Assembly: GCA_030531695.1 (NCBI GenBank)
Contig: JAUNMV010000006.1
Coordinates: forward strand, 1 to 53,690
Source of the DNA: Bacilli bacterium
GTDB taxonomy: Bacteria; Bacillota_I; Bacilli_A; RF39; UBA660
DNA: 53,690 bases
Direction of reading: 5' to 3'
The position numbers and the translations under genes are program-made. Position 1 is the first letter of the stretch, and every line of letters begins with the position of its first letter. Below the pieces are notes generated by a model. It ran no database searches. It was not told the DNA's origin and was given only the letters and a program-made list of their open reading frames with translations. Positions 10,707 to 10,952 of this stretch are shown piece by piece.

Positions 10707-10952
10707 ATGGAAACTATTTTATCATCAACTATTACAGCTATTGGTACCATGCTAGGACTTGCTTTCTTAGGCATTGGTATCGGTATCGGTATCTTAGGTT
10801 CTAAGGTAGCTGAAGCTGTAGGTAGAAACCCTGAAACAAAAGGAGATGTTGTACATTCTGTTATGACACTTATGATTGTTACTACTGTGTTTTTACTATT
10901 CTTATTTGCATTTGTTTTCCTATTACTTTACTTTAATCCTTTAACTAGCTAA
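10707..10952 (+). CDS. F-type ATPase c-subunit-like proteolipid lacking the ion-binding carboxylate
   Basis: 81 aa, two membrane helices. Helix 1 has a glycine-repeat ([18 protein letters not shown]) like F-type c subunits and is followed by the polar loop RNPE (R40-E43; family RQPE). In c subunits, helix 2 carries an essential Glu or Asp 20 residues after that Arg. Here position 60 is Thr ([12 protein letters not shown]) and helix 2 has no acidic residue at all. A c-ring could still form and bind gamma/epsilon through the loop, but it could not carry H+ or Na+ in the usual way. Strong AAGGAGGAG ribosome site, 14 bases after the previous gene. GGC/ATC codon use is richer than in neighbours, perhaps reflecting high expression. 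Confidence 0.88.

Follow-up and report, generated by a model that had tools for sequence, protein, structure and literature searches.

Genes and features of the locus

The window, i.e. the whole stretch of DNA analyzed here, comprises 53,690 nucleotides of one contig (JAUNMV010000006.1, assembly GCA_030531695.1) of a Bacilli bacterium (GTDB lineage Bacillota_I; Bacilli_A; RF39; UBA660). The following genes were delineated within it:

3787..9219, + strand: surfA, first gene of the conserved operon; 1810 aa, with an N-terminal membrane anchor, a membrane-proximal domain and a long arm
9250..10692, + strand: surfB, 480-aa single-pass protein with a surfA-type membrane-proximal region (weak FN3 match)
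10707..10952, + strand: c*, c-subunit proteolipid without the ion-binding carboxylate (Pfam PF00137)
10955..11722, + strand: candidate b-delta fusion (peripheral stalk) with an N-terminal TM helix and coil and a C-terminal delta-like domain (hhalign)
11726..14998, + strand: alpha-like subunit, core at about residues 1-455 followed by an acidic tail (PF00006, 245 bits)
15000..15767, + strand: gamma-like central stalk subunit (PF00231, 80 bits; hhalign 99.9% to canonical gamma)
15791..17161, + strand: beta-like catalytic subunit (PF00006, 228 bits)
17130..17390, + strand: epsilon-like subunit, beta-sandwich domain only (best hhalign match canonical epsilon, at only 15%; operon position)
17392..17943, + strand: a*, 4-6-TM protein, probable degenerate subunit a (AlphaFold and Foldseek)
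17927..18652, + strand: m241, N-terminal TM helix and all-beta extracytoplasmic domain (AlphaFold, pLDDT 92)

Across the 59 loci with full flanks the gene order was mostly surfA-surfB-c*-bdelta-alpha-gamma-beta-epsilon-a*-m241-surfC, with surfB present in 54 of them and with gamma and m241 relocated in one lineage. The stretch from c through b-delta, alpha, gamma and beta to epsilon corresponds to the ordinary atp order. Further downstream, the window contains two acetate kinase genes in tandem (22423-23610 and 23677-24882).

A c subunit without its ion-binding site

The c* open reading frame encodes 81 aa, begins with ATG, and is immediately preceded by a strong Shine-Dalgarno sequence (taaggaggag). 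The protein matched Pfam ATP-synt_C (PF00137) with an E-value of 1.3e-8 and 35.4 bits against a cut-off of 24, and fell far under the cut-off of every NCBIfam subunit-c model. Profile comparison by hhalign yielded 98.7% to canonical c; null pairs in these comparisons scored mostly about 2% or less, with some membrane-helix pairs at 10-24%. When the c* family profile was compared with solved c rings, Acetobacterium woodii was the best match and Ilyobacter (1yce) and chloroplast rings were also among the matches; in the alignments read (A. woodii c1/c2, 4bem) the correspondence was gapless through the loop and helix 2.

The initial annotation had taken the RNPE loop (R40-E43) to set the register and had placed Thr at position 60, where the carboxylate is expected. 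Both points were confirmed: R40-N41-P42-E43 aligned with the RNP/RQP loop, and T60 lay opposite the ion-binding Glu of the solved rings. The register is sound because counting 20 residues on from the loop Arg leads to Glu in every ordinary c subunit recovered (by this rule or by alignment). The absence of any acid from helix 2 was likewise borne out, as the only acidic residues of the window c* are E2, E36, E43 and D47, which lie in the loop or at the ends of the helices. The protein thus retains PF00137 family membership and the RN/QP loop and lacks the helix-2 carboxylate.

A scan of named genomes returned 155 c* relatives, of which 80 were kept, and position statistics were calculated on the 79 distinct sequences. 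Position 60 was Thr in 32, Ala in 23, Ser in 22, and Met and Phe in one each, and was never acidic (0/79), so the loss seen in the window extends to the family. Position 27, which in many ordinary c subunits is Gln or Glu and serves as a second ion ligand, was always Ile, Leu, Val, Met or Phe (Ile27 in the window); this ligand is lost as well. A shifted helix-1 acid serving as ion site, which the initial annotation had named as counter-evidence, was looked for across both helices, and no conserved mid-membrane acid was found among the 79 homologues. Asp59, the only Asp of helix 2 and one residue from the lost site, occurred in a single relative of the window's genus (genome G001, locus L126, 7817-8062) and is an isolated change, the column otherwise holding T, L, A, M, F, Q, I, V, G or S. 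In 4/79 homologues position 10, at the outer end of helix 1, was acidic. The RNP loop was invariant in the first 32 c* sequences tabulated, and the loop that docks gamma/epsilon is therefore kept, as the initial annotation had proposed.

Between close relatives, dN/dS of c* was 0.02-0.07, no higher than the 0.06-0.10 of beta for the same pairs. Values for gamma, b-delta and epsilon were mostly about 0.1-0.3, and a* and m241 were looser, making c* the most constrained operon gene among those tested. Very strong purifying selection maintains the gene, which is not decaying; a pseudogene is ruled out by dN/dS, which indicates that the carboxylate-less ring is functional.

Catalytic head and stalks

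The F1 part looks catalytically intact. The alpha-like subunit keeps its P-loop, and beta carries a Walker A motif (GGAGVGKT), the catalytic Glu in GERSREG, and a DELSEED-like loop; across the beta family, 78/78 sequences had Walker A and 78/78 had the GE[RK] motif of the catalytic Glu. An anti-phage system was considered and rejected, PADLOC returning only a weak P-loop match to beta. The epsilon-like protein (86 aa) has no C-terminal inhibitory helices.

Residues 456-1090 of alpha form an acidic, repetitive tail of 635 residues (31% D+E) with repeats like EEPVVEYSEEVPTEE. Such tails are found in the window's genus and some relatives, with total lengths up to 1416 aa, and most alpha proteins of the family end at ~445 aa. 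Alpha open reading frames of 667-675 aa were found at L089 (8980-10983) and L261, in G251 (a same-family genome with ordinary F1Fo) and a Lachnoclostridium MAG; the L089 frame begins with a delta-like region, a possible delta-alpha fusion.

The b-delta protein (255 residues) matched canonical b at its N-terminus (39.7%) and canonical delta in its C-terminal part (73.6%) by hhalign. Its b portion is short, with about 50-60 residues outside the membrane that may or may not span the distance to the top of F1, and its delta-like end is conserved (GIxIxYxxKxYDYS). Searches of the b-delta, epsilon and a* sequences against solved structures gave no useful match. With moderate confidence, the peripheral stalk subunits b and delta would be combined here in one fused protein.

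A candidate subunit a and its extracytoplasmic partner

The AlphaFold model of a* (183 residues, pLDDT 90) has six helices, namely one TM, one short, two TM and two long, an order that we take to match that of subunit a. The top Foldseek matches were enriched in subunit a, from four kinds of bacteria (PS3, M. smegmatis, E. coli, Chloroflexus), with probability up to 0.95, TM about 0.5, and no E-value below 0.1. No profile link to subunit a was detected (hhalign 2.1%). On this evidence homology of a* to subunit a is likely. The column that would hold the essential Arg (R125 of the window, in S-R-L-L-T-N) was Arg in 7/67 sequences, Lys in 6/67, and mostly Asn, Ser or Tyr in the rest. In the window's genus a* reads R-L-L-T-N where subunit a reads R-L-F-G-N, which may be a relic of ion function.

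The AlphaFold model of m241 found no similar fold among solved structures. One clade of Lachnospiraceae has a* and m241 fused (best case: a* half 6e-24, m241 half 1e-48), and this fusion connects the extracytoplasmic domain with the motor's stator side. The fusion loci are L128, L131, L136, L137, L138, L140, L141, L147 and L196; the fused proteins are 400-407 aa long, or 371 aa in L147, where the gene is cut by the contig end. At most of these loci the next protein is 465-549 aa long and has an m241-like domain in its C-terminal half.

Surface proteins and the host

The motor is accompanied by four membrane-anchored extracytoplasmic proteins, the largest of 3,288 aa, and profile comparison revealed similar membrane-proximal regions in surfA, surfB, surfC and m241. 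The N-terminal region common to surfA and surfB matched at 99.5% by hhalign. Glycine runs interrupt both proteins, of 11 residues at residue 283 in surfA and of 10 at 245 in surfB; surfA of some relatives carries a collagen-like stalk in place of these window runs, followed by Ig/FN3-like domains (collagen, fn3 and Big matches). From the position of the TM helix, surfA, surfB and m241 are predicted to be located outside. The surfC gene lies inside the operon in sister genera and outside it in the window's genus; the homologue in the window's genome encodes 3,288 aa with a TM helix at each end (L278, 8664-18530, contig C80). The surfC copy of a relative contains an ALK/LTK-type glycine-rich domain. 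About 20 matches to this domain were found on several contigs of the window's genome, mostly in open reading frames of 470-730 aa, and these proteins may be an expanded surface or secreted family.

Judged by its gene content (a penicillin-binding protein, a Mur ligase, SpoIVA and SASP), the host is walled and spore-forming, and the surface arms would thus need to cross the cell wall.

Distribution and copy number

Within the window's own family, c* matches were found in 37/386 genomes, 33 of them strong (E < 1e-34), and another family of the class contributed one more case. A phylum-wide sample yielded c* in 2/392 genomes, of the window's family only; the carriers among Clostridia were recovered by the named-genome scan. 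Carriers include gut Bacilli, Mollicutes-labelled MAGs, Lachnospiraceae, Family XIII, Oscillospiraceae and the cultured isolate Kineothrix alysoides KNHs209.

Thirty-four same-family c* genomes, one of them a single contig, contain exactly one c gene each, and none of the 34 has a Pfam subunit a (PF00119). Subunit a with the essential Arg is thus absent by Pfam from the same-family carriers, and a* has no conserved Arg. With a single c gene per genome, the ring cannot mix with ordinary c. The window's genome has no ordinary F1Fo. Clostridia with c*, including Lachnospiraceae, also encode ordinary c subunits with Glu60, and there c* comes with its own full F1 gene set. In G037, a genome of another family, an additional subunit a match was observed (contig C25, 5646-6257) with three in-frame TGA codons; the genome otherwise uses the standard code here, and the contig is probably a contaminant from an organism reading TGA as Trp.

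Phylogeny of alpha and beta

In a tree of concatenated alpha and beta, ordinary Firmicutes and mycoplasma F1 formed one group (SH-aLRT 98). The new system formed a clade of 28 rows with support of 100, the mycoplasma Type 2/3 sequences were separate, and branches were long in both; the G037 member was a long branch outside the 28.

A proposed ion-uncoupled rotary ATPase with mechanical output

The reading that we favor, with a probability of roughly 0.6, is that of a complete but ion-uncoupled F-type rotary ATPase with mechanical output to surface proteins. Eight F1Fo subunit types appear to be represented, as alpha, beta, gamma, epsilon, the b-delta fusion, the c ring and a probable degenerate a, and both halves of the ion path seem to have lost their essential charges, the Glu on c and the conserved Arg on a. 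The proposal of the initial annotation that the ring is uncoupled from ion flow is supported by the family-wide loss of the site, by selection, by the F1 motifs, by the lack of a conserved a* Arg and by the single c gene of the same-family genomes, and as far as sequence can tell the ion-uncoupled rotor is well supported; c* would be a mechanical rotor. ATP hydrolysis in the alpha3beta3 head would turn gamma/epsilon and the c* ring against a stator predicted to consist of b-delta, a* and m241, presumably with no passage of ions. The output would be mechanical, with torque or cyclic movement transmitted through the membrane to surfA, surfB and surfC. Given the lost ion site and the giant surface-protein neighbors, ATP is probably spent on mechanical work. 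Gene order and one fusion point to the link between the motor and the surface proteins, which would be the parts that are moved. Candidate purposes are motility, adhesion control and surface shearing.

Alternatively, the complex could be an ATP-hydrolysing, membrane-anchored conformational switch or help to assemble or export the giant surface proteins, in which case the c* ring would be no more than a static scaffold. The giant surface-protein genes are its constant neighbors, and the mycoplasma Type 3 system has been proposed to reset surface proteins, not to spin them (PMC12994834). A static anchor would need neither an invariant docking loop nor constraint on c* at least as strong as on the catalytic subunit, and both stator (b-delta) and rotor (gamma, c*) are retained; we regard this explanation as unlikely, if still worth weighing against the rotary one.

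The system could also be a non-mycoplasma ancestor or sister of the mycoplasma Type 2/3 F1-like X0 lineage that does the same job. Alpha scored 378 bits against the MMOB1660 model, near the 391 for atpA, and alpha and beta of both systems fall outside the ordinary Firmicutes clade. Both are ATPases with no ion site that are accompanied by surface proteins and possibly by a b-delta-derived protein; for GliD, an origin from b plus delta has been suggested (PMC11864180). However, the two groups, both of which have long branches, are not united in the tree, beta best fits the ordinary atpD model, and no profile link was found to mycoplasma proteins 1, 2 or 5. Furthermore, there is a c ring here and no c subunit in the mycoplasmas, and common descent of this kind appears doubtful. 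The related idea of a fused c ring as the origin of the mycoplasma 12-TM protein was unsupported (hhalign 0.4%).

Residual ion transport through Ser or Thr60, through Asp59 in one strain, or through the helix-end acids is improbable. Thr or Ser at position 60 could in principle bind an ion, Asp59 does occur in the one relative, and the a* Arg of the window's genus stands in an R-L-x-x-N motif; however, 25/79 homologues have Ala, Met or Phe at position 60, no mid-membrane acid is conserved, position 27 is hydrophobic throughout, and the a* Arg is found in so few sequences.

In some known rings certain hairpins have no site (A. woodii c1, 4bem), and c* could by analogy be a minor component of an ordinary c ring that lowers the ion-to-ATP ratio, as the Lachnospiraceae genomes with both kinds of c might suggest. 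The 34 same-family genomes, with no other c and no Pfam subunit a, rule this out for the window's family, and the complete F1 genes that belong to c* in Clostridia argue against it there; overall it is very improbable. Decay of an F1Fo operon in a fermenting host, in keeping with the missing ordinary F1Fo of the window's genome, can be set aside almost entirely: c*, beta, gamma, epsilon and b-delta all have dN/dS far below 1, catalytic motifs are retained, and the operon is conserved across genera and classes.

More tentatively, the ion-uncoupled rotor might represent a third rotary ATPase class, widespread in walled gut Bacillota, in which the whole F1Fo architecture including c ring and stator is kept, no ions are transported, and ATP drives giant surface fibres across the envelope as a motility, adhesion or surface-shearing motor; we consider this possible and somewhat short of an even chance. 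If true, such a class would either supply the intermediate that is missing between ATP synthase and the mycoplasma motors for gliding and antibody clearing, or have arrived at the same solution independently.

Comparison with known systems

In mycoplasmas, mechanical output is known or has been proposed for two ATPases derived from F1 (PMC11864180, PMC12994834), and such F1-like motors have been said to be without equivalent in other bacteria (PMC3369863). Our literature searches returned only mycoplasma Type 2 (gliding) and Type 3 (antibody clearing) as F1-type motors with such outputs, and no published description of an ion-siteless c* system was found in them.

Like the Type 3 F1-like X0 ATPase, the partner of MIB-MIP (PMC3369863, PMC12994834), the new system combines F1-like alpha, beta, gamma and epsilon and an absent ion-translocating Fo with large surface-protein neighbors and a proposed mechanical output. 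In Type 3, a 12-TM protein and a 2-TM 80-kDa protein replace Fo, and homologues of c, a and b are absent, whereas the new system retains a c ring, has b and delta fused and probably keeps a subunit a; the membrane parts share no profile similarity. Type 2/3 is encoded by a seven-gene cluster with a 12-TM protein 1 and a 2-TM protein 5; genes for these two were not found in the operon, nor was any profile link to them. With the Type 2/G1-ATPase twin motor of Mycoplasma mobile gliding, the new system would share an F1 head that has been turned to mechanical use at the cell surface. Type 2 differs in having no c ring, a dimeric motor, PGK, different membrane proteins, and a beta with an N-terminal extension, unlike the new beta of normal length. 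These comparisons do not establish membership in mycoplasma Type 2/3; it is plausible that the new system works like Type 2/3.

Ordinary F1Fo of the Na+ type (A. woodii, Ilyobacter) shares with the new system the c-b-delta-alpha-gamma-beta-epsilon order and a c subunit that is gapless with c* through helix 2. Unlike ordinary F1Fo, the new system lacks carboxylate 60, Gln/Glu 27 and the conserved Arg of a, has b and delta fused and an epsilon with no C-terminal helices, and adds the four extracytoplasmic proteins. Unlike the A. woodii hybrid ring, in which a site-less hairpin is combined with ordinary c, it has a single c gene in 34/34 same-family genomes. Membership in the ion-coupled F1Fo ATPases would therefore be denied on these sequence features. 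To our knowledge, all c rings known so far carry ions; in a c ring that is under strong selection and has no ion site, the mechanical role is set apart from the transport of ions. A similar conversion to that of the mycoplasmas would have occurred in many uncultured gut Bacilli and Clostridia and in the cultured carrier Kineothrix alysoides, with Fo parts kept that mycoplasmas lack; this wide occurrence, the cultured carrier and the retained Fo parts make the change from ATP synthase to mechanical motor testable.
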